This document shows, in pieces, positions 24,477 through 35,080 of a DNA stretch of 36,187 nt. The position numbers and the translations under genes were made by a program. Where the stretch lies: the NCBI GenBank assembly GCA_028700655.1, contig JAQVSG010000015.1, positions 1-36,187 on the forward strand, written 5' to 3'. The notes beneath the pieces are model-generated. The model did no database searches. It was given only the letters and a program-made list of their open reading frames with translations, and was not told where the DNA came from. This DNA comes from Caldisericia bacterium. Its GTDB lineage: Bacteria; Caldisericota; Caldisericia; UBA6126. Each line of letters opens with the position of its first letter. Position 1 is the first letter of the stretch.

Positions 24477-24735
24477 TCTTATTGTATTAATGGTATGCTT
24501 AATGTTTGTTGGAATTACCCAAACATTACTATGGATGGTGGATACAAAAATTGAGAATACGCAAAACCTGAACCAAGAGCTGCGTATTCAAATTAGCGAT
24601 TTACAAAAAGAGTACGAAAATTATGTAAATGTCAACTACGTATTAGAAGAAGCTATGAACCGAGAAACCCTGCACATGATTAAGTTACCAGAAGACCGAC
24701 AAGGGGAGGTATTGACTATTGAGCTTCCTGAGTAA
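24457..24735 (+). CDS. ftsL: FtsL-like division protein
   Basis: A 92-residue single-pass protein: a short cytoplasmic N-terminus, one membrane helix (about 6-27), then a leucine/asparagine-rich coiled coil (about 32-62). FtsL proteins are too variable for a sequence motif, but size, topology and position between rsmH and the class B penicillin-binding protein are diagnostic. It would form the FtsL-FtsB/DivIC-FtsQ complex that activates FtsW and its partner transpeptidase at the septum. AGGAA upstream supports the ATG at 24457. It overlaps rsmH by 20 nt and the next gene by 17 nt, indicating tight translational coupling. Confidence 0.85.
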   Translation: MNQALRSLIVLMVCLMFVGITQTLLWMVDTKIENTQNLNQELRIQISDLQKEYENYVNVNYVLEEAMNRETLHMIKLPEDRQGEVLTIELPE

Positions 24736-26446
24736 AAGAAAAAAACATCGAATTGCTAGTATCCAATTTGTAGGATTTGGCATGTTTATTCTTTTGATAT
24801 TTGTATCCGTGTGTCTTTTTTGGAGAGGTTTTTTTGATGAAAGAGTCGCGGAACTAAAGGATTATCGATCCAGTACCCCCGATATTATATTGCCAATGAG
24901 AGGGAAAATACTCGATCGCAATGGAAAGATACTGGCAGAAAGCAAAGAAGCATTCAACCTTCAATGCAACCGAAATCAAATGGAGAATCCAGAATTGTTC
25001 ATGAATCAAATTGGACCTATAGTAAACATCGACGAACAAACACTTATGGATGATTACAAGAAAAACACCCAAGATCCAAAGACGGTTTGTGTCGTGGTTG
25101 CAAGAAAACTAACTGAGAATCAAGTGGAGAGGATTAAGAAGTTGGTGAAAGATTCTCCCATCTGTAACTATGAGTTTGTCCCGGATCAAAAAAGAACCTA
25201 TCCAAAAAGAACGACAGCGGCCTCATTGGTTGGTTTTGTAGGGTTGGACAACACCGGCTTAAGTGGTATTGAACATGCCTATAACAATTTGTTATCGGGG
25301 ATACCGGGCAATAAAATTTACAATCGAACTTTTAGTGGGAACAAGGTACCCGGATCCGAAGAAATTCTACATATGCCCAATCATGGGAAAAACTTAGTCC
25401 TTACCTTGGATGAGAAAATTCAATCCAAAGTGGAATCAATACTCGAACTTCACGTTGAGAAATCCAATGCCAAAGGAGGCGTAGCTATTGTTGTCAATCC
25501 TCGCAATGGAGAGTTAATTGCAATGGCCTCGTATCCAACCTTTGATTTGAATATGGGACAGGATTATATTGGGAATGTTCAATATTCCAACAAAGCTCTG
25601 GCTATGAATTATGAACCGGGGTCTGTTTTTAAATCTGTTACTGCTTCAGCAGCTCTAGATTTGGGATTTATTACCCCCGAAGATGCTTACACTTGTGAAG
25701 GACAAATTTGGGTGGAGAATAAACCAATCCAATGCATTATTCCGCACGGAACTCAAAAACTAGCTGACTATATACGAAATTCTTGCAATGTTGTGTTTGC
25801 TCAGATTGGTCAAAAAATGGGTGTTCATTTACTCGATTTTGTAGAAAGGTTTTATTTTGGATCTCATTTACCCATTCAGCTTTCTGAACAAGAAGCAGGG
25901 ATTCTACCTGATCGAGATTGGTATTCTGACCTTGAGGCAGCCAATATTTCCTTCGGTACTTCCATTTCTGTCACTCCCTTGCAGATGATTTATGCATATG
26001 CTGCCATTATTAACGGGGGAGACTACTTGAAACCCTTACTAATAAAAGAGATACAAGATTCTACTGGCAAAGTGATAGAAAAGTTCGAGAAACAAATTCT
26101 GAAAAAAGTAATATCACAGGAAACATCTGCTGAAATGGTTACTGTGTTACAAAATGTTGTCCAAGACCCCAATGGGTGTACACAAGCTAAGATTCCTGGG
26201 GTCCCCATTGGAGGGAAAACAGGAACATCGTACAAAAGTATTGATGGTCAATATCAAAACGATAAAGTAGTGTGTTCCTTTGTAGGTTTTTTCCCCACCG
26301 ATGCACCTGAATATCTTATTCTTGTATCCATTGATGAACCTTATCCAAGCTACAATGCGTATGGTTCTACAATCGCCGCTCCTGTTTTTAAAGATATTGC
26401 CCAATGGATTTTACGAATAGAGGATCAGTCAAATGCTTTTGAGTGA
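24719..26446 (+). CDS. Class B penicillin-binding protein (FtsI/PBP2B/SpoVD type)
   Basis: The 575-residue septal transpeptidase cross-links peptidoglycan together with FtsW. One N-terminal membrane helix (about 15-37) is followed by the dimerisation domain (MRGKILDRNGKILAES) and the penicillin-binding domain with Ser-x-x-Lys in EPGSVFKSV, Ser-x-Asn in NSCN and KTG in GGKTGTS. All catalytic motifs are intact. No C-terminal PASTA domain is present, unlike many Gram-positive SpoVD/PBP2x proteins. The start is TTG at 24719, chosen because GGGGAGG lies 9 nt upstream inside ftsL. It overlaps murE by 14 nt. Vegetative FtsI versus sporulation SpoVD cannot be distinguished here. Confidence 0.93.
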   Translation: MSFLSKRKKHRIASIQFVGFGMFILLIFVSVCLFWRGFFDERVAELKDYRSSTPDIILPMRGKILDRNGKILAESKEAFNLQCNRNQMENPELFMNQIGPIVNIDEQTLMDDYKKNTQDPKTVCVVVARKLTENQVERIKKLVKDSPICNYEFVPDQKRTYPKRTTAASLVGFVGLDNTGLSGIEHAYNNLLSGIPGNKIYNRTFSGNKVPGSEEILHMPNHGKNLVLTLDEKIQSKVESILELHVEKSNAKGGVAIVVNPRNGELIAMASYPTFDLNMGQDYIGNVQYSNKALAMNYEPGSVFKSVTASAALDLGFITPEDAYTCEGQIWVENKPIQCIIPHGTQKLADYIRNSCNVVFAQIGQKMGVHLLDFVERFYFGSHLPIQLSEQEAGILPDRDWYSDLEAANISFGTSISVTPLQMIYAYAAIINGGDYLKPLLIKEIQDSTGKVIEKFEKQILKKVISQETSAEMVTVLQNVVQDPNGCTQAKIPGVPIGGKTGTSYKSIDGQYQNDKVVCSFVGFFPTDAPEYLILVSIDEPYPSYNAYGSTIAAPVFKDIAQWILRIEDQSNAFE

Positions 26447-27953
26447 TATTTCAGCCCACCTACCTTGTAAAAAAAAAAGACTCTATAAAGACTGTACAAT
26501 CCACGATATACAAAGAGATTCTCGACACATAGAAGAGGGGGATGTCTTTGTATCGATTCCTGGGACTCAAACTGATGGACATCGGTATATTGATAATGCG
26601 ATTCAAAGGGGTGCTGTTGGAATCGTTGTTTCGGAGAATTACGACTGTTCTTTATTGCCAAACTCCATATCCTATTGGGTTGTTTCTTCTTCAGCACAAG
26701 CTTGGAGTTTATTATCACAAGCTTGGTTTCAATATCCTGCATCTCGTTTAAAAATGATTGCTATAACGGGGACATCAGGAAAGACATCTTCTGCTCACAT
26801 TGTTTATCAAATGCTACAATCGATGGGTGAAAAAGCAGTATTAATAGGAACGGGTGGTATTTTCCTTCATGGACATTCTGTTGACTACACCATGAAAGGC
26901 GCGGTTACGACTCCCGACCCAAAAGAACTACACTATATTTTGTCCAAGGCTGTTGAAGAAGGATGTAGCTTCGGAATTGTAGAAGCTAGCTCTCATGGGT
27001 TGGCACAAGAACGTCTTTTTGGGGTAGCTTTGGATGCTGTTTTTTTTGTTTCTCTTTCCCCTTGTCATCATATAGAATACCACCAATCTGAAGAACGTTA
27101 TATTCGCGCAAAGGAAAGGATTTTTTCCGCTGTAAAAAAACAAGGTCTCATTATTATTAATAAGGATGCAGAGCTTTATTCACAAATGCATATTCCCTCT
27201 TTTCCATTCTGTGTTACTATCTCTCTTTTTGACAACGCCGATTACAGATTGTTCCCAAGTTGTTCTATCAAAGAGAATGCACAACGATCAGAACATCGAT
27301 TTACTCTGCAGGGACACAATCAGAGTTTTCATCTTTCTACAAAACTGCCTGGAGAATTCCAAATGTATAACATTGGGGCTGCTTTTTTAATTGGAAAACA
27401 CTTTGGACTTCCTTTAGATCTGTTGAGCACTGCTTTAGAAAACATTGATCATATTCCGGGACGATGGCATCTGATTCCCACCACACTACCATTGACCGTG
27501 GTAGTGGATAAAGCCAATGTACTCTTAGCTCTTCGATATTTTCGTAAAGAGATTGAGTCTCGTTCGTATACAAGGCGTATTCTAGTCTTTGGGAATGTGG
27601 GCGGAGGGCTGAAATCATCTAGAGCGAATATTGGAACGTTTTTTTGTTCTTTTTTTGACGATATTTTTTTGACTCTGGATGACCCCGAAACAGAAGATCC
27701 TACTTTCGGTTTTCAGCATTTTATGTCCATTCTCTCCATAAAAGAAGCAAAAAAAGTGATGATCATTGAGGATCGAAAGAAAGCCATTCAAAAAGCCATT
27801 GATTCTGCTCCAAAAGGGGCTATTGTTGCAATTTTAGGAAGAGGGAATCAAAAAGAATACTTAGTACAGGGTGGTGTGCAAATGTTTGATGATGTTGAGG
27901 TAACAAAACAAGTCATTCGTGATAAGGAAAATCATGTTTCTTGTAACCAATAG
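26433..27953 (+). CDS. murE: MurE-like UDP-MurNAc-tripeptide synthetase with divergent motifs
   Basis: At 506 residues and directly after the division penicillin-binding protein, this is positionally MurE, which adds the third amino acid of the stem peptide. The N-terminal domain (DSRHIEEGDVFVSIPGTQTDGH), P-loop GTSGKTS (113-119), VEASSHGL and the carbamylated-Lys motif YIRAK (Lys227) are recognisable. Other motifs are altered: canonical DHLDYH reads HHIEYH (212-217), VDYAHTPDAL reads VDKANVLLAL (358-367), DNPR-E-DP reads DDPETEDP (416-423) and GKGHE reads GRGNQ. Glu replaces the Arg that binds the diaminopimelate carboxylate, which hints at a basic side chain such as L-lysine or L-ornithine. 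The C-terminal segment is closest to L-lysine-type MurE in my memory. ATG 26433 has GAGG 9 nt upstream. Confidence 0.85.
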   Translation: MLLSDISAHLPCKKKRLYKDCTIHDIQRDSRHIEEGDVFVSIPGTQTDGHRYIDNAIQRGAVGIVVSENYDCSLLPNSISYWVVSSSAQAWSLLSQAWFQYPASRLKMIAITGTSGKTSSAHIVYQMLQSMGEKAVLIGTGGIFLHGHSVDYTMKGAVTTPDPKELHYILSKAVEEGCSFGIVEASSHGLAQERLFGVALDAVFFVSLSPCHHIEYHQSEERYIRAKERIFSAVKKQGLIIINKDAELYSQMHIPSFPFCVTISLFDNADYRLFPSCSIKENAQRSEHRFTLQGHNQSFHLSTKLPGEFQMYNIGAAFLIGKHFGLPLDLLSTALENIDHIPGRWHLIPTTLPLTVVVDKANVLLALRYFRKEIESRSYTRRILVFGNVGGGLKSSRANIGTFFCSFFDDIFLTLDDPETEDPTFGFQHFMSILSIKEAKKVMIIEDRKKAIQKAIDSAPKGAIVAILGRGNQKEYLVQGGVQMFDDVEVTKQVIRDKENHVSCNQ

Positions 27954-29313
27954 TACGCTCACAAAGATTGTTGATGGGATATGGCTACAAGAGGGTGAAA
28001 ACTTAAACAAGGAGTATCCTTTGCATCTTGAAATAGATTCGAGGAAAGTTCGCCCAGGAGATGTTTTTGTTTGTTTACAAGGAGAACGAGTGGATGGACA
28101 TAACTATGTAGATCAAGCTCTACAAAAAGGAGCGAGAGGATTTATTGTTGAGAAGCCTCTATCCACTATGGAAAAGCAAGAATCCTTTTTTGTACTTCGT
28201 GTGAAGAAAACATCCCAAGCTCTTTTAGATATTGCTACTGAAATCGCAAAACAATATTCTTCCATTCTCATTACTGGTTCTGCCGGTAAAACAACTACAA
28301 AGCAGATTCTTGAAACGATTTTGCCATCATCCCATGCTACTTTTGGAAATTACAATACCCCCATTGGACTTCCTGTTGCATTTTCGAATATCCCCGCCAA
28401 TACAAAATGGATCCTCTCAGAATTAAGCGCTTCTTATCCTGGTGAAATCGAAACTATTTTGCCTCTTTTTTCTTCTTCAGAGGGTGCTATTTTAACGGGA
28501 ATTGGAAATTCTCATACAGAATTTTTTTCTTCCACAAAAGAAATACTGAATTCGAAAGCATTGATATTTGAAAATGTGTCAAATTCACATACATGTTTTG
28601 CAAATGGACATTTAGAAGGTCTTGAAAAAGACTTAAAAAGGATGCACCCATGTGTACAATTGTATGGATTTGATGCTTCTATGGATATTCCAATTGTTCT
28701 TTTAGGAATGGACAAACAAGGAACTACCTTTTCTTTCTCTACAGGTGGATCATCGTATACCTTTACATTGCCTTGTTTTGGGAAACACTATGTATTAAAT
28801 GCCGTTGCTTGTATTGCTTTAACCATGCAACTATGTCCATCCCTGAAAGTGGCAGAGATACAAGAAAGACTACAAACATTCACCCCTGGTAAGGGTAGGG
28901 GGAGATGGCTACATCTTTTTCATGGTTGCGTTTGTATTGATGAATCCTACAACGCAAATCCTTTATCCATGAAAATGTCCTTAGAGGCTTTCTTCTCGTT
29001 TCCAGCTTCTTCCAAGATTCTAGTATTGGGAGACATGCTAGAACTCGGCTCGATGGCTGAACAAGAACACAAAAAGATAGGAACATTGGTGAAACAATGT
29101 CATGCAAAGAGGATTTTTTATATTGGTCAGTATGGGAAATCTTTTCAAGATGGATACGGGACGTCAGAAGACGTTGAATACTACACCACGATAGAGGAAC
29201 TGTATGACCATTTGCAAAAATGGGTTCGAAAAGATACTGCGATGTTTGTAAAAGCATCGAATGGTGTTGGTTTGCATACGCTTGTAAACAAACTTGAATC
29301 AATGGTAAAGTAA
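27934..29313 (+). CDS. murF: UDP-MurNAc-tripeptide:D-Ala-D-Ala ligase MurF
   Basis: A 459-residue Mur ligase adding D-Ala-D-Ala to the stem peptide. Domain 1 has EIDSRKVRPGDVFVCLQGERVDGH, the P-loop is GSAGKTTTK (115-123), then ELSASYPGEI, ILTGIGNSHTEFF and, in domain 3, GRGRWLHL with DESYNANPLSM and LVLGDMLELG. Apart from the P-loop, where Ala stands for the usual Asn, the motifs are close to canonical. ATG 27934 is preferred (AAGGA 5-6 nt upstream); an in-frame GTG at 27919 is possible. The start overlaps the murE end by 20 nt, and mraY follows 11 nt later. Confidence 0.94.
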   Translation: MFLVTNSTLTKIVDGIWLQEGENLNKEYPLHLEIDSRKVRPGDVFVCLQGERVDGHNYVDQALQKGARGFIVEKPLSTMEKQESFFVLRVKKTSQALLDIATEIAKQYSSILITGSAGKTTTKQILETILPSSHATFGNYNTPIGLPVAFSNIPANTKWILSELSASYPGEIETILPLFSSSEGAILTGIGNSHTEFFSSTKEILNSKALIFENVSNSHTCFANGHLEGLEKDLKRMHPCVQLYGFDASMDIPIVLLGMDKQGTTFSFSTGGSSYTFTLPCFGKHYVLNAVACIALTMQLCPSLKVAEIQERLQTFTPGKGRGRWLHLFHGCVCIDESYNANPLSMKMSLEAFFSFPASSKILVLGDMLELGSMAEQEHKKIGTLVKQCHAKRIFYIGQYGKSFQDGYGTSEDVEYYTTIEELYDHLQKWVRKDTAMFVKASNGVGLHTLVNKLESMVK

Positions 29314-29324
29314 AGGAAAATTGT

Positions 29325-30275
29325 ATGGTAGTACAGACATTTATTTTTTTTTGGGGAAGTTTTCTTCTTGTTCTCATTACTATGCCCTTTGTCATTAGAC
29401 ATTTAAGAAAACAACAAATCGGACAATATGTTCGCGAAGAAGGGCCTAAGGATCATCTAGTTAAAGCTGGCACACCCACTATGGGTGGAATGGTGTTTAT
29501 CGTAGTCGCTGTTTTGCTATACGGACTGTATATGTGGGGTTCATCTCGTCTTTTTCTTGACTTTCTTCCCATATATCTTCTTCTTTCCTATGCATGTATT
29601 GGTTTTTTAGATGATTATCGCAAAACCGTTCTTCGATCTCCCTATGGATTGAAAGCCAGAGAAGATATTACCTTACAAATTCTGGCTTCTATCCCTGTTA
29701 TTTTTGGGATGTACTCATTTTCAAGTTGTACATTCTTTACTGTAGGTTGTGTTATTTTTGAGATCATTTTTATTCTATCGGTTGTGAATTCTGTCAACTT
29801 AACAGATGGCATAGATGGTTTATTGAGTAGTGTTTCGGTGCCAATTTTCTTTTTTTATGCAATTGTACTCTATTCGCAAGGACAGTATTCTGGTGTTGTA
29901 TTTGCCCTTGTTATGGCCGGGACTCTACTTGGATTCGTAATCTTTAATGCCTATCCTGCAAAGGTTTTTATGGGCAATGTTGGATCTTTTGCAATCGGAG
30001 GTGCCATGGTCGCATTGGCCATCCGTTCTCAAACTGAATTCTACCTCCTCCTCATCGGTCTTCTTTTTGTTTGGGAAGCGTTGTCTGTCATAATACAGGT
30101 AAGTTGGTTTAAGATTACGAAAAGAAAGTATGGGGATGGAAGACGAATTTTCTTAATGTCTCCGTTTCATCACCACTTGGAGTTAAAAGGGTATTCAGAG
30201 ACTCATATTGTTGTTTTGTTCACAAGCTTGGAGATCATCTTGTGCACCTTTGCTGGTGCAATTTATTTTTTGTAA
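29325..30275 (+). CDS. mraY: MraY-type phospho-MurNAc-pentapeptide transferase with two atypical active-site residues
   Basis: The 316-residue, about ten-helix membrane enzyme transfers phospho-MurNAc-pentapeptide to undecaprenyl phosphate, forming lipid I. Matches include GPKDHLVKAGTPTMGG, FLDDYRK (Asp96-Asp97), NLTDGIDGL (158-166) and MSPFHHHLELKGYSE (His282-284). Two normally invariant residues differ. The third catalytic Asp (GDxGS in the family) is Asn218 in MGNVGSFAIGG, and the conserved Lys after the GL-x-AR segment is Asp114 in GLKAREDI. AAGGAAAATTGT precedes the ATG at 29325. Family membership is certain from length, topology, remaining motifs and position between murF and murD; activity is open. 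Confidence 0.92.
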   Translation: MVVQTFIFFWGSFLLVLITMPFVIRHLRKQQIGQYVREEGPKDHLVKAGTPTMGGMVFIVVAVLLYGLYMWGSSRLFLDFLPIYLLLSYACIGFLDDYRKTVLRSPYGLKAREDITLQILASIPVIFGMYSFSSCTFFTVGCVIFEIIFILSVVNSVNLTDGIDGLLSSVSVPIFFFYAIVLYSQGQYSGVVFALVMAGTLLGFVIFNAYPAKVFMGNVGSFAIGGAMVALAIRSQTEFYLLLIGLLFVWEALSVIIQVSWFKITKRKYGDGRRIFLMSPFHHHLELKGYSETHIVVLFTSLEIILCTFAGAIYFL

Positions 30276-30287
30276 CTTTTTCGTAAA

Positions 30288-31682
30288 ATGAAGGCAATGA
30301 AAAAATCACTTGACCTGAAAAACAAAAAGATCACAGTTTTTGGACTTATGAAAAGTGGTAAAGCCGCTATTGAGTTGCTGCTATCTAAAGGTGCGGACGT
30401 GTTTGCTACGGAGGCATCGGCAAGCATTGATCCCAAGACGATCATATGGTTAGAATCTATGGGTGTTGATTTTGAGCTTGGTTTTCACTCGGAACGAACC
30501 TTTGAAGGAAAAGATCTGATTGTTATTTCACCAGCAGTTCCCAAACGGATTCCTATCTTGCAAAAAGCCGAGGAACACCATGTACCCATTATTGGTGAAA
30601 TTGAATTGGCATATCAGTTCACCGAGTCCCATTTTATAGCTATTACGGGAACGTCTGGAAAGAGCACCTCTGTGGAGCTTACAGGGCATATTTTACGGTA
30701 TCATATTGCTCCTGTCTATGTTTGCGGTAATATTGGGATCCCTATCTCGGAAATTGTACATAAAACCAAGGCAGCCACTTTGGTTGTCGAAGTTAGTTCT
30801 TTCCAATTAGAAACGATCCAAGAATTTTCTCCTCACATAGCAGTCTTCTTAAACTTTTCCGAAGACCATTTAAATCGGTATAAAACGATGGATGAGTATT
30901 TTGCGGCAAAACTTCGAATCTTCGAAAATCAAAGAGAAAATGATTACTCCATTTTAAATGGAGACCAAGAATGCCTTTACAACATCAATGTGAACAATGC
31001 AAAGAAATACCTTTTCTCTATGAAGAAAAAAGTCAATCCAGGATGTTGGTATGATCATGATACAGATGAGGCAGTCATTGCCGATGATCCAAGGGAAATA
31101 AGAATTTCTTTAGCAAATATGAGGATTAAAGGGTATCATAACAAGCAAAACGCAATTGTTAGCATTTTATCTTCTTACTTGTATTTACAAAAAGCCTTCT
31201 CCGCAGACCTTTGCAAAAAAGCACTGTTAACTTTTCAAGGACTTCCTCATCGATTTGAATGGGTAGGTCGATTTAATGGTATTGGCTTCATCAATGATTC
31301 AAAATCAACAAAGCCTTCCACAACTATTGTTGCGATTCAGTGTATGACAGAACCCTTTGTTCTAATGATGGGAGGCAGCGATAAGGAAAGCGATTTTCAT
31401 GAAGTTGCCAAACGAATTGCATCGCATCCCTTCGTGAAAAGTGTGATTTTGTACGGAAAAACAAGGAAAAAAATCCGTAACGCTTTGGATGAAAATGGAT
31501 TTCGAAATTATAAAATGACCCCGACTTTTAAAAGCGCTTTTTTTGAAGCTACAAAAAGAGCAAGAGCAAATGATTTTATACTTTTATCACCCGGATGTGC
31601 CAGTTTTGACGAATTTAGCAATTTTGAAGAACGAGGCAATACTTTTAAAAAAATGATTTGGCGCACCTTTAACCAACCATGA
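30288..31682 (+). CDS. murD: UDP-MurNAc-L-alanine:D-glutamate ligase MurD
   Basis: A 464-residue Mur ligase adding D-glutamate. The N-terminal Rossmann-like domain (ITVFGLMKSGKAAIELL), P-loop GTSGKST (121-127), VCGNIGIPI, VEVSSFQLE, FLNFSEDHLNRYKTMDEYFAAK (carbamylated Lys) and the domain-3 blocks FINDSKSTKPSTT, MMGGSDKESDF and LLSPGCASFDEFSNFEERG are present. These are near canonical. ATG 30288 is taken; a second ATG at 30297 is equally possible and neither has a good ribosome site. mraY ends 12 nt before; ftsW starts inside the stop (ATGA overlap). Confidence 0.95.
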   Translation: MKAMKKSLDLKNKKITVFGLMKSGKAAIELLLSKGADVFATEASASIDPKTIIWLESMGVDFELGFHSERTFEGKDLIVISPAVPKRIPILQKAEEHHVPIIGEIELAYQFTESHFIAITGTSGKSTSVELTGHILRYHIAPVYVCGNIGIPISEIVHKTKAATLVVEVSSFQLETIQEFSPHIAVFLNFSEDHLNRYKTMDEYFAAKLRIFENQRENDYSILNGDQECLYNINVNNAKKYLFSMKKKVNPGCWYDHDTDEAVIADDPREIRISLANMRIKGYHNKQNAIVSILSSYLYLQKAFSADLCKKALLTFQGLPHRFEWVGRFNGIGFINDSKSTKPSTTIVAIQCMTEPFVLMMGGSDKESDFHEVAKRIASHPFVKSVILYGKTRKKIRNALDENGFRNYKMTPTFKSAFFEATKRARANDFILLSPGCASFDEFSNFEERGNTFKKMIWRTFNQP

Positions 31683-32818
31683 TTTCTCCCAATAAGCTGC
31701 ATGCAAATATTATGACTCTTACGATACTACTATGTTTGATAGGCTTACTCATGGCATTTTCTACGACCTCCACCTATTATTTTAATGATGGAGGACAAGG
31801 AAATCCTTTTGTAGGTTTGTTTCAACAATTTGTATTTTTGATGGTAGGTTTTTTGGTTTTGTTCTTGTTTCGGAAAATGCCCCAAAAATTTTTGAAACAG
31901 TATGCATTATTGTTTTATTACATTTCTCTTGTTTTACTATTTGTTGTTTTAGTTTTCCATACCTCGATAACAAATGAAGTGGGGGAAGAAGCCAGAAGAT
32001 GGATATTTATACCCGGAGGATTGACAATACAACCTTCTGAAATTGCGAAAGTGTCTATCATTTTTTATATTGCAGCCTATTATTCAGCATATAAAAAGAA
32101 AATGATGCTGAAAGACCATCTTCAGCCCATTATCATGATTGCTATTGGTGCAGGCCTTATTGCAGTGGAGCCCAATGTGTCGGCAGCCGTTGTGTTTGGT
32201 GCTATTGGACTTGTGACAATGGTATTAGGAGGATTTCCTCTTATGTTGGGTGTTTTGGGTTCCTCTTCGATATCTGTTCTTTTTTATCTTGTGATGTCTA
32301 AGATTCCTCGTCTTCAAAGACGCTTAAGTATTGTTCAAGAAGTGTTTGTAAGTCCTGATGCATATCAATTGCGCCAAGGATTGAGAGCTATTGTAAGGGG
32401 TGGACTTGTTGGTCAGGGGTATATGAAAAGTTCTCAAAAGTTCATTAACTTGGCATTTTCATCCACAGATTTTATATTTGCCATCATTTGCGAAGAATTC
32501 GGTTTAATATTTGGATGTCTTCTCCTTTTCCTCTATTTTCTATTATTTTATTACATATTGCAGGTAGCGAGGCTTGTGAAGAGTCATTTTTATTCTATTC
32601 TTGTCGCAGGCATAGCTTTTCACTTGCTATTCCAAGCTCTTCTTCATGTTGCCGTTACCCTGGCTATATTCCTTCCAACAGGAATACCACTGCCTTTCAT
32701 CAGCAAAGGAGGAAGCGCTTTGATTCTCAATTTGTTTGAAATTGGAATTGTGCTTAACATTGCTGCGCGACTTCCTATTAAAAAAGACCGTTCCGAGGAA
32801 TTCTCAATTGTTGCCTGA
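31679..32818 (+). CDS. ftsW: FtsW-type SEDS peptidoglycan glycosyltransferase
   Basis: The 379-residue protein has about ten membrane helices. SEDS signatures: ARRWIFIPGGLTIQPSEIAKV, EPNVSAAVV, the catalytic Asp region SSTDFIFAIICEEFG and PFISKGGSALILNL. It polymerises lipid II at the septum with the class B penicillin-binding protein encoded four genes upstream. FtsW rather than RodA is inferred from its place in the cluster between murD and murC. Start ATG overlaps the murD stop by 4 nt; the end overlaps the likely murC start by 11 nt. No gene for MurG, usually next to ftsW, follows. Confidence 0.93.
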   Translation: MISPNKLHANIMTLTILLCLIGLLMAFSTTSTYYFNDGGQGNPFVGLFQQFVFLMVGFLVLFLFRKMPQKFLKQYALLFYYISLVLLFVVLVFHTSITNEVGEEARRWIFIPGGLTIQPSEIAKVSIIFYIAAYYSAYKKKMMLKDHLQPIIMIAIGAGLIAVEPNVSAAVVFGAIGLVTMVLGGFPLMLGVLGSSSISVLFYLVMSKIPRLQRRLSIVQEVFVSPDAYQLRQGLRAIVRGGLVGQGYMKSSQKFINLAFSSTDFIFAIICEEFGLIFGCLLLFLYFLLFYYILQVARLVKSHFYSILVAGIAFHLLFQALLHVAVTLAIFLPTGIPLPFISKGGSALILNLFEIGIVLNIAARLPIKKDRSEEFSIVA

Positions 32819-34169
32819 TCAGAAGCATGTATATATGACAGGCATTGGTGGAGTCGGCATGACCCCTTTGGCTCTTTATTATAGAGCGATGGGTTATCAC
32901 GTCGAAGGATCGGATCTGCAGTCATTTCGAATGGAATCTATTTTACAGAACCAAGGTATATCTATTCACTATAAACAAAGCAAAGAGAATATTCACCCTG
33001 GGATCACCTCCTTGATTTATTCAGCAGCGATTCCTTCTACCAATCCTGAATTGGTAGAAGCACGTGCGTGCAATATACCCTGTGTCCATCGAATAGATGT
33101 TTTAAAAGAAATTGTACAACCAAAAACATTGCTCTCTGTAACAGGTAGTTATGGGAAAAGCACAACCTCAACATTTTTATCAAGCATGGCAGAACAATGC
33201 GGGTTACAACCCTCTTGGCTGATAGGGGCGGACATGTTGCATTATCCGTGTGCTCGATTTACAAATAGCAATTACTTTGTTTTAGAGACCGATGAATCTC
33301 AACCCAGTTTTCTAGACTTTCATCCTTCGTATTTAATCCTAACGAACATTGGCGTAGACCATTTAACAAACTACGAAAACAACCCGGAAAAATTAAAGCA
33401 AGCAATGGTTCACATTGTTGACAACACCAAGAAAAAAATTGTTACTCCTTATGCTGTAAAAGAATCCCTAGAAAATCAAGCTGTTCAAAACTCGTGGATA
33501 ACATGTGGTTTTGAAAATGGGGATTACAGAATTACTCACCACCATACTTATTTTGATGGATCTGGGCTACGGACATCTTTCCATGTAGATGGAAAATACT
33601 CCTCTTTTCATGCTGAGATTCCGATGCCTTCGATACGAAATGTTATGGATGCACTGCTATCTTTTGCTCTTGTGGAGGATATTGTTGGACCTATTGCTAC
33701 ACCCTCTGACTATTTTTCTTCACTCCCCGTTGTAGAAAGAAGATTCCAGTTCATTCCCACCGAGTCTCGTGCTCTTTTCATTGATGACGAAGGTGACAGT
33801 CCAGATGTTATCAAACAAGTTCTGGAGGATGCAAAACTTTATTTTCCCCATCGTCATCTCATCGTTTTTCTTCAACCTCACCGATATTCAAGACTTCACA
33901 ATCTGTTTACGGAATATGTCCAAGCTATGCAGTGGGCCGATGAAGTATTTATTTTGCCCGTATATGCAGCGGGTGAAGAGCAAGAAAATCGAAAAAATAG
34001 CATGGATTTGTTCGAAGCTCTTAAAAAATGCCATACTGGTTCTGTTCATTATGTTCATTCTTTAGCCGAAGGTTCTTTACTCCTTTCTTCTCTCCTGCGT
34101 CCATCCAACGCAATTATTACGTTGGGGCCTGGCGACGTATGGAAGCTTTATCAGGATATTTGTGAATGA
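32808..34169 (+). CDS. murC: MurC-like UDP-MurNAc:L-alanine ligase with divergent motifs
   Basis: Position between ftsW and murB and the N-terminal block MTGIGGVGMTPLALYYRAMGY identify MurC, which adds the first L-alanine. Also matching are YSAAIPSTNPELVEA, the P-loop GSYGKST (113-119; canonical GTHGKTT), ETDESQPSFLDFHP, TNIGVDHLTNY, PVVERRFQFI and FLQPHRYSRL. The DDYAHHPTE motif of domain 3 reads DDEGDSPDV (326-334), and the HNV-x-N segment reads RNVMD. The start is taken as TTG 32808 because GAGGAA lies 7 nt upstream, giving 453 residues, a normal length. A longer reading frame open from 32736 overlaps ftsW heavily and is unlikely. The murB start overlaps the stop by 4 nt. Confidence 0.86.
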   Translation: MLPDQKHVYMTGIGGVGMTPLALYYRAMGYHVEGSDLQSFRMESILQNQGISIHYKQSKENIHPGITSLIYSAAIPSTNPELVEARACNIPCVHRIDVLKEIVQPKTLLSVTGSYGKSTTSTFLSSMAEQCGLQPSWLIGADMLHYPCARFTNSNYFVLETDESQPSFLDFHPSYLILTNIGVDHLTNYENNPEKLKQAMVHIVDNTKKKIVTPYAVKESLENQAVQNSWITCGFENGDYRITHHHTYFDGSGLRTSFHVDGKYSSFHAEIPMPSIRNVMDALLSFALVEDIVGPIATPSDYFSSLPVVERRFQFIPTESRALFIDDEGDSPDVIKQVLEDAKLYFPHRHLIVFLQPHRYSRLHNLFTEYVQAMQWADEVFILPVYAAGEEQENRKNSMDLFEALKKCHTGSVHYVHSLAEGSLLLSSLLRPSNAIITLGPGDVWKLYQDICE

Positions 34170-35080
34170 AAAGACAGACTATGGACTTTTCTTTTTTTTC
34201 AGGAAACGTTCTTCGCGATGAATCATTAAAACCTTACAACACATTTGGTATTGGGGGAAAAGCTAATTATTTAGTACAACCAAAAACCCCCGAAGATGTT
34301 GTTCAAACTATTCGTGAGTGTGATTCTATGGAAGCTCCTTATTGTATTGTTGGTTGTGGGTCGAATATTCTTTTTTCGGATGAAGACTACCCTGGGGTTG
34401 TCATTGACATGAAAGACCATCTAACAGCAATCCATATTTTCCAAGGCAATTTGGTGTTTGTTCAAGCAGGAGTACTCATGCAGAGTGCAATACAATGGTT
34501 TCTTCAAAATTATTTTACCGGATATACCTATTTAGCTGGTATTCCTGGTACTATTGGTGGTTGTATTGCTATGAACGCAGGAACCAATCGAGGACGAATA
34601 CACCAAATTGTTCACACCATCACCTATTTTGATGGGACTCACTTGCAAGAAATGACAGGTAAAAAAATTCAAGATTCTCTATTTTACCGAAATAGTGTCT
34701 TTTTGGAAAAGAAGTGGTGCATTCTATCTGCTCTACTTAAATTGGAGAAGGGGGATATTGCAAAAGAGAAAAAACAATTACAAAGTTATTTGCAAAAACG
34801 TAACATTACTCAACCTCTTCACTCCAAAAGCGCAGGTTGTTTTTGGAAAAACCCCCCTCATCATACCGCTGGTAAAATTCTAGAAGAATTAGGTTTGAAG
34901 GGATTTCAGATGGGAAATGTGAAAATTTCTGAAAGGCATGCAAATTTCATTTTAAATATGGGAGAAGGTACATGTAGAGAGGTATTGGCTTTAGCTGAAA
35001 AAGTGGAAGATATTGTGTACCAAAAAACAGGAATTGTACTAGACAGGGAAGTACAACAAGTATCTGGAATGTTGCATTGA
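34166..35080 (+). CDS. murB: UDP-N-acetylenolpyruvoylglucosamine reductase MurB
   Basis: The 304-residue FAD enzyme reduces UDP-GlcNAc-enolpyruvate to UDP-MurNAc. Motifs: NTFGIGGKA, IVGCGSNILFSD, LAGIPGTIGGCIAMNAG, FYRNSVF (Tyr174-Arg175 region) and ISERHANFI, with Glu295 in LDREVQQVSG. The short form without the E. coli Tyr loop is the type II class of Gram-positives. The conserved SAGS-x-FKNP, whose Ser is the proton donor, reads SAGCFWKNP, so Cys225 takes the Ser place. ATG 34166 has AGGA 9 nt upstream; Met6 is an alternative. It closes the cell-wall cluster; no clear terminator was seen in the following 134 bp, only a small ATCTTT-GTT-AAAGAT hairpin at 35106-35120. Confidence 0.93.
   Translation: MKRQTMDFSFFSGNVLRDESLKPYNTFGIGGKANYLVQPKTPEDVVQTIRECDSMEAPYCIVGCGSNILFSDEDYPGVVIDMKDHLTAIHIFQGNLVFVQAGVLMQSAIQWFLQNYFTGYTYLAGIPGTIGGCIAMNAGTNRGRIHQIVHTITYFDGTHLQEMTGKKIQDSLFYRNSVFLEKKWCILSALLKLEKGDIAKEKKQLQSYLQKRNITQPLHSKSAGCFWKNPPHHTAGKILEELGLKGFQMGNVKISERHANFILNMGEGTCREVLALAEKVEDIVYQKTGIVLDREVQQVSGMLH

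Follow-up and report, generated by a model that had tools for sequence, protein, structure and literature searches.

Can a phospho-MurNAc-pentapeptide transferase (MraY) do its work when two residues of its active site are missing? Three aspartates and a lysine of this enzyme are treated as indispensable, and their roles as metal ligand, base or guide of the lipid phosphate are disputed between studies of MraY and of DPAGT1. The question is raised by a contig of a Caldisericia bacterium, of which a stretch of 36,187 nucleotides (hereafter the window) was analysed. Its mraY gene (29325-30275, forward strand like all genes and residues of the window given below; 316 amino acids) encodes a protein with a non-canonical active site. 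The original prediction left open whether MraY chemistry proceeds here in a rearranged site or whether this copy has another role while a second mraY exists elsewhere.

The two altered positions

Direct reading of the codons and alignment both bear out the two substitutions that had been noticed. Codon 29976-29978 is AAT (Asn218, in the context FMGNVGS) and takes the place of the Mg2+-binding aspartate, i.e. D265 in Aquifex aeolicus, D231 in Bacillus subtilis and D252 in DPAGT1; the equivalence with B. subtilis D231 and Escherichia coli D267, as given in the original prediction, is correct (PMC5039524, PMC6606608). Codon 29664-29666 is GAT (Asp114, in the context GLKARED) and replaces the invariant lysine (A. 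aeolicus K133, B. subtilis K116, DPAGT1 K125). Among MraYs of diverse bacteria fetched by homology the former position is Asp and the latter Lys in 79 of 79 sequences; an 80th match (L038) belongs to a relative with the altered site and stands outside these references. The flanking MG-x-x-GS and GL-x-AR segments are in register and gap-free between the window protein and the other MraYs, and neither the Asp nor the Lys is found at a shifted position.

The other catalytic residues are kept. Asp96-Asp97 (29610-29615) are the first two aspartates of the DDD motif, the segment Asn158-Leu-Thr-Asp161-Gly-Ile-Asp164 (29796-29816) includes Asn158, the counterpart of the other Mg2+ ligand (Asn185 in DPAGT1), and His282-His283-His284 (30168-30176) form the MraY-specific HHH motif. 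In an alignment of ten MraYs with Asn at position 218 (N-type) and 48 with Asp (D-type), the D-types share 46 positions with a conservation of at least 90%, and only at 114 and 218 is the D-type consensus missing from every N-type. At the other 44 it is not lost in all N-types; K47, N155, N158, D161, D164, the aspartate pair 96-97 and the histidines 282-284 are all retained. A further position separates the two groups, namely 222 (Phe222, 29988-29990), four residues beyond the lost aspartate, where N-types have Phe or Asn and canonical MraYs mostly Leu. By residue offset it corresponds to Tyr256 of DPAGT1, which together with Lys125 hydrogen-bonds Asp115 (PMC6218659), so that the differences at 114, 218 and 222 appear to cluster round one microsite.

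Distribution and origin of the N-type

A screen for the MGN pattern covered 54 genomes of the phylum, and MraY proteins were read from most of them. The motif MGNxGS occurs in all eleven genomes of two related groups, the order of the window (six genomes, G000-G005, families f1 and f2) and the family f6 (five genomes, G009, G013, G017, G021 and G025). One of the latter (G009) escapes the pattern at the DNA level, its MraY protein reading MGNLGS. The carriers are probably a group of uncultured bacteria related to Caldisericum, and the window would belong to an uncultured order of the phylum Caldisericota; a search of its own genome for 16S rRNA gave no match. At the lysine site their enzymes have Asp in five genomes, Ser in G005 and Thr in f6. 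MraYs read from families f3, f4 and f5 and from f7, which belongs to another class, show MGD together with Lys, apart from a single Arg at the lysine site. Loss of the aspartate and loss of the lysine thus coincide perfectly among the MraYs read from this phylum.

Since both sites are substituted in every one of the 11 genomes from the window's order and f6, Asp114 and Asn218 are beyond chance or error. The window does come from a draft metagenome-assembled genome, in which a sequencing or assembly error or a misalignment might be suspected; such an explanation has a negligible probability and is refuted by the relatives, as the altered residues are found in eleven assemblies of different species, whose N-type MraYs are 40-57% identical to the window protein, and one of these assemblies (G003) was also recovered from a second collection as L038.

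Two trees bear on how often the N-type arose. A tree of PNPase separates the window's order and f6 from f3, f4 and f5 with support of 96/92. In the MraY tree f4 falls into one group with the order and f6 (support 92/97), and two changes of state are needed; a single N-type clade is not rejected on the MraY data (AU p = 0.43). Most simply, the N-type would have arisen once, in an ancestor shared by the window's order and f6; it may instead have arisen twice, or f4 may have reverted.

Orthology, copy number and selection

The window protein scores 233.7 bits against the equivalog profile TIGR00445 (curated cut-off 192.05) and 20.7 bits against PF10555, the MraY signature 1 (cut-off 20.1), and it also exceeds the cut-off of PF00953. 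It reaches 44 bits with the WecA/TagO profile TIGR02380 (cut-off 326) and hence is not closer to that family. An AF2 model, computed for the protein alone without ligand or metal, has a mean pLDDT of 92.5, and its best 24 matches in the PDB are all MraY (TM up to 0.86). Profile, fold, gene context and descent all identify the gene as an MraY orthologue; it departs from the family at two catalytic residues. Its dN/dS ratio is 0.17 for the pair G003/G004 and 0.017-0.083 within f6. N-type mraY is under purifying selection and is neither an error nor a dying gene.

The search for a second mraY, proposed as a check together with the prediction, gave exactly one MraY-type and one WecA/TagO-type gene per genome, both in the organism's own genome and in its relatives of the order and of f6; no second MraY-type gene was found in any of them. 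That a canonical second copy hides in the 11% missing from the assembly might be argued from its completeness of 88.6% and its 145 contigs. It is very improbable, given that the relatives with a single mraY include genomes of the window's family that are 93, 94 and 97% complete and genomes of f6 that are 90-95% complete. The genomes searched also hold one strong match to murG each and, when a second set of Mur ligases was sought, only one MurC/D/E/F set plus FolC. The suggestion that this copy serves another role beside a second mraY is therefore not supported.

The WecA/TagO-type paralogue deserves separate consideration. In the own genome it lies at C44 beside a gene for UDP-GlcNAc 2-epimerase. 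Both Asp and Lys are kept in the paralogues of the window's order and f6. Only MraY is thus affected, and a superfamily-wide adaptation to the metal supply of the cell does not account for the change. The retention of both residues in the paralogue, seen in all genomes checked, would suit a scenario in which the N-type MraY, lacking two residues called essential, is dead or weak and the paralogue has taken over the synthesis of lipid I. We consider this improbable: the paralogue has no HHH motif, its neighbour is the epimerase gene and it is present in canonical relatives too, whereas the MraY itself is under purifying selection, retains the other catalytic residues and occupies a position in the dcw cluster.

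The dcw cluster and its other Mur enzymes

In the window the gene order is rsmH-ftsI-murE-murF-mraY-murD-ftsW-murC-murB, and it is common to the relatives in the order; the cluster is intact, as originally described. The neighbours are murE (26433-27953), murF (27940-29313, by profile match), murD (30288-31682, by profile match), an ftsW-family gene (31679-32818; below the cut-off of TIGR02614, above that of PF01098), murC (32736-34169), the true start of which is probably downstream of the ftsW stop, and murB (34166-35080, by profile match). The location of mraY between murF and murD is seen in the window and in G001-G003 and G005 but not in f6. There mraY is separated from the dcw genes (L128-L131), murE-murF and murD-ftsW-murC-murB being found elsewhere, and the distance from mraY to the WecA/TagO-type gene is about 9 kb in G013 and about 12 kb in G009. 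Within the genus, identity along the cluster (24719-35080) is uneven when the window is compared with G001: 78% for MurD, 72% for FtsW and 57% for MraY, then 49% for MurF and MurC, 46% for MurE and 42% for MurB.

Two of the neighbouring ligases are atypical as well. MurE of the window's order, f6 and f4, but not of f3 and f5, has a DKANTP-like motif for DYAHTP; the window MurE moreover shows CHH where DH is usual (both its DKAN and its CHH motif being common to f6 and f4) and DDPETEDP in place of the DNPR specificity loop, and DNPR is also missing in f6 and f4. From these motifs the third residue of the stem peptide may be unusual. Throughout the window's order, and only there, MurC carries the P-loop GSYGKST (usually GTHGKTT) and DDEGDSP for DDYGHHP, while it is near canonical in f6 and the other families. 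Taken together, the peculiarities of MurE and MurC suggest an unusual precursor. A MurT-like ligase, judged by eye, is found in G020 (L265:599-1972) of the window's class, and a protein of this kind was reported for Caldisericum exile (PMC11915815).

Because MurC and MurE are odd too, a paralogous dcw cluster was suspected; the single set of Mur ligases plus FolC in the genomes searched rules it out. A single event that altered MraY, MurE and MurC together is ruled out likewise, the three changes being distributed differently, and for this reason the changes in MurE and MurC are treated here as separate from that in MraY.

They matter for the question whether the N-type enzyme is an active transferase with changed chemistry, which might use another metal (e.g. 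Mn2+), catalyse independently of metal, or act on a different nucleotide-sugar or lipid-phosphate substrate in the making of an unusual precursor. In homologues, the two residues that are missing here touch metal, phosphate or lipid phosphate, and the N-type genomes share a MurE with DKANTP and without the DNPR loop, to which the atypical MurC is added in the window's order. Against this, the uridine pocket and the HHH motif retain their residues, and since the MurE change occurs also in f4 with its canonical MraY and MurC is near canonical in f6, these enzymes did not change together. Altered chemistry of this kind seems unlikely, though it is the least unlikely of the rival explanations.

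Comparison with known enzymes and a possible mechanism

Compared with well-studied bacterial MraYs (A. aeolicus, 5CKR and 6OYH; E. coli, 8G01), the window protein is alike in TIGR00445 score, fold, dcw context, single copy and the retained DD, NxxNLTDGxDG and HHH motifs. It differs in having Asn for the third aspartate (D265/D267/D231), in the replacement of the lysine (K133/K116) by Asp, or by Ser or Thr in its relatives, and in the altered residue four positions after the aspartate. In A. aeolicus D265 is a Mg2+ ligand called essential, and both K133 and D265 touch tunicamycin (PMC6606608).

A precedent for the loss of the aspartate comes from human DPAGT1 (GPT), a member of the same superfamily. 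Its Mg2+ ligands are D252 and N185; K125, located next to the phosphates, directs the lipid phosphate (PMC6218659). Activity falls to 7% in D252A, to 1.2% in N185A and below 2.2% in K125A, K125E and K125Q, whereas the D252N mutant, i.e. the same Asp-to-Asn exchange at the Mg2+ ligand, is 5-fold more active, for which the authors invoke a more electropositive Mg2+ (PMC6218659). Asn218 by itself is thus no sign of inactivity. The loss of the lysine is the harder fact and a real puzzle in view of those Lys125 mutants: DPAGT1 needs the residue that N-type enzymes do without. DPAGT1 differs in its sugar and lipid substrates and is a distant homologue, which limits its value as a precedent for the window MraY.

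An Asn occurs naturally at the third aspartate in other members of the superfamily. The MGN pattern, whose Asp version matches 77 of 79 D-type references, was searched in 398 Bacillota genomes; MGN-bearing MraYs were not among the matches, which comprised five proteins in five genomes (L232-L236), all of the WecA/TagO type with MGNSG. Unlike the window MraY they have no HHH motif (FMGNSGAYFLGY) and they keep the Lys (GIKLVVQ). The Asp-to-Asn step has, to judge from these sequences, happened elsewhere in the superfamily. Loss of the lysine appears confined to the window's order and f6 among the 79 references, the phylum and the Bacillota sample, and further cases may exist.

On balance we favour, with a probability of roughly two in three, the view that the N-type protein is the only MraY of this lineage and that its active site, with the charges compensated, produces lipid I (undecaprenyl-PP-MurNAc-pentapeptide). 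The clade-wide change, the single copy, the dcw context and purifying selection speak for that half of the original prediction in which a rearranged site carries out MraY chemistry. In such a site Mg2+ would still be held, by Asn218, Asn158 and the pyrophosphate of UDP. The positive charge of the lost lysine near the lipid phosphate would be made up for, and the net charge of the site would be roughly kept. In DPAGT1 that lysine engages the counterpart of Asp96, which might here be set free to act as general base or as ligand of the lipid phosphate. The report that K116 of B. subtilis MraY is catalytically important counts against a charge-compensated site (PMC5039524), as do the weak Lys125 mutants of DPAGT1 and the description of D265 as essential in MraY itself. 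The idea that Asp114 itself stands in as metal ligand does not hold in general, since Ser (G005) or Thr (f6) is found at this position; as a universal replacement ligand it is ruled out.

Implications

The N-type MraYs are natural double mutants in which a Mg2+-ligand aspartate and a lysine have gone together and essentially all else is kept. Synthesis of lipid I that relies on neither an acidic Mg2+ ligand nor the superfamily-invariant lysine could, as a tentative proposal that we hold at clearly less than even odds, represent a second catalytic solution among the polyprenyl-phosphate hexosamine-1-phosphate transferases. If this is true, the use of metal and the response to those nucleoside inhibitors that touch K133 and D265 may be altered. 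The family also allows the disputed roles of these residues to be probed with enzymes that are presumably active instead of dead. MraY is an essential target of antibiotics, and nature has apparently found another way to run it.
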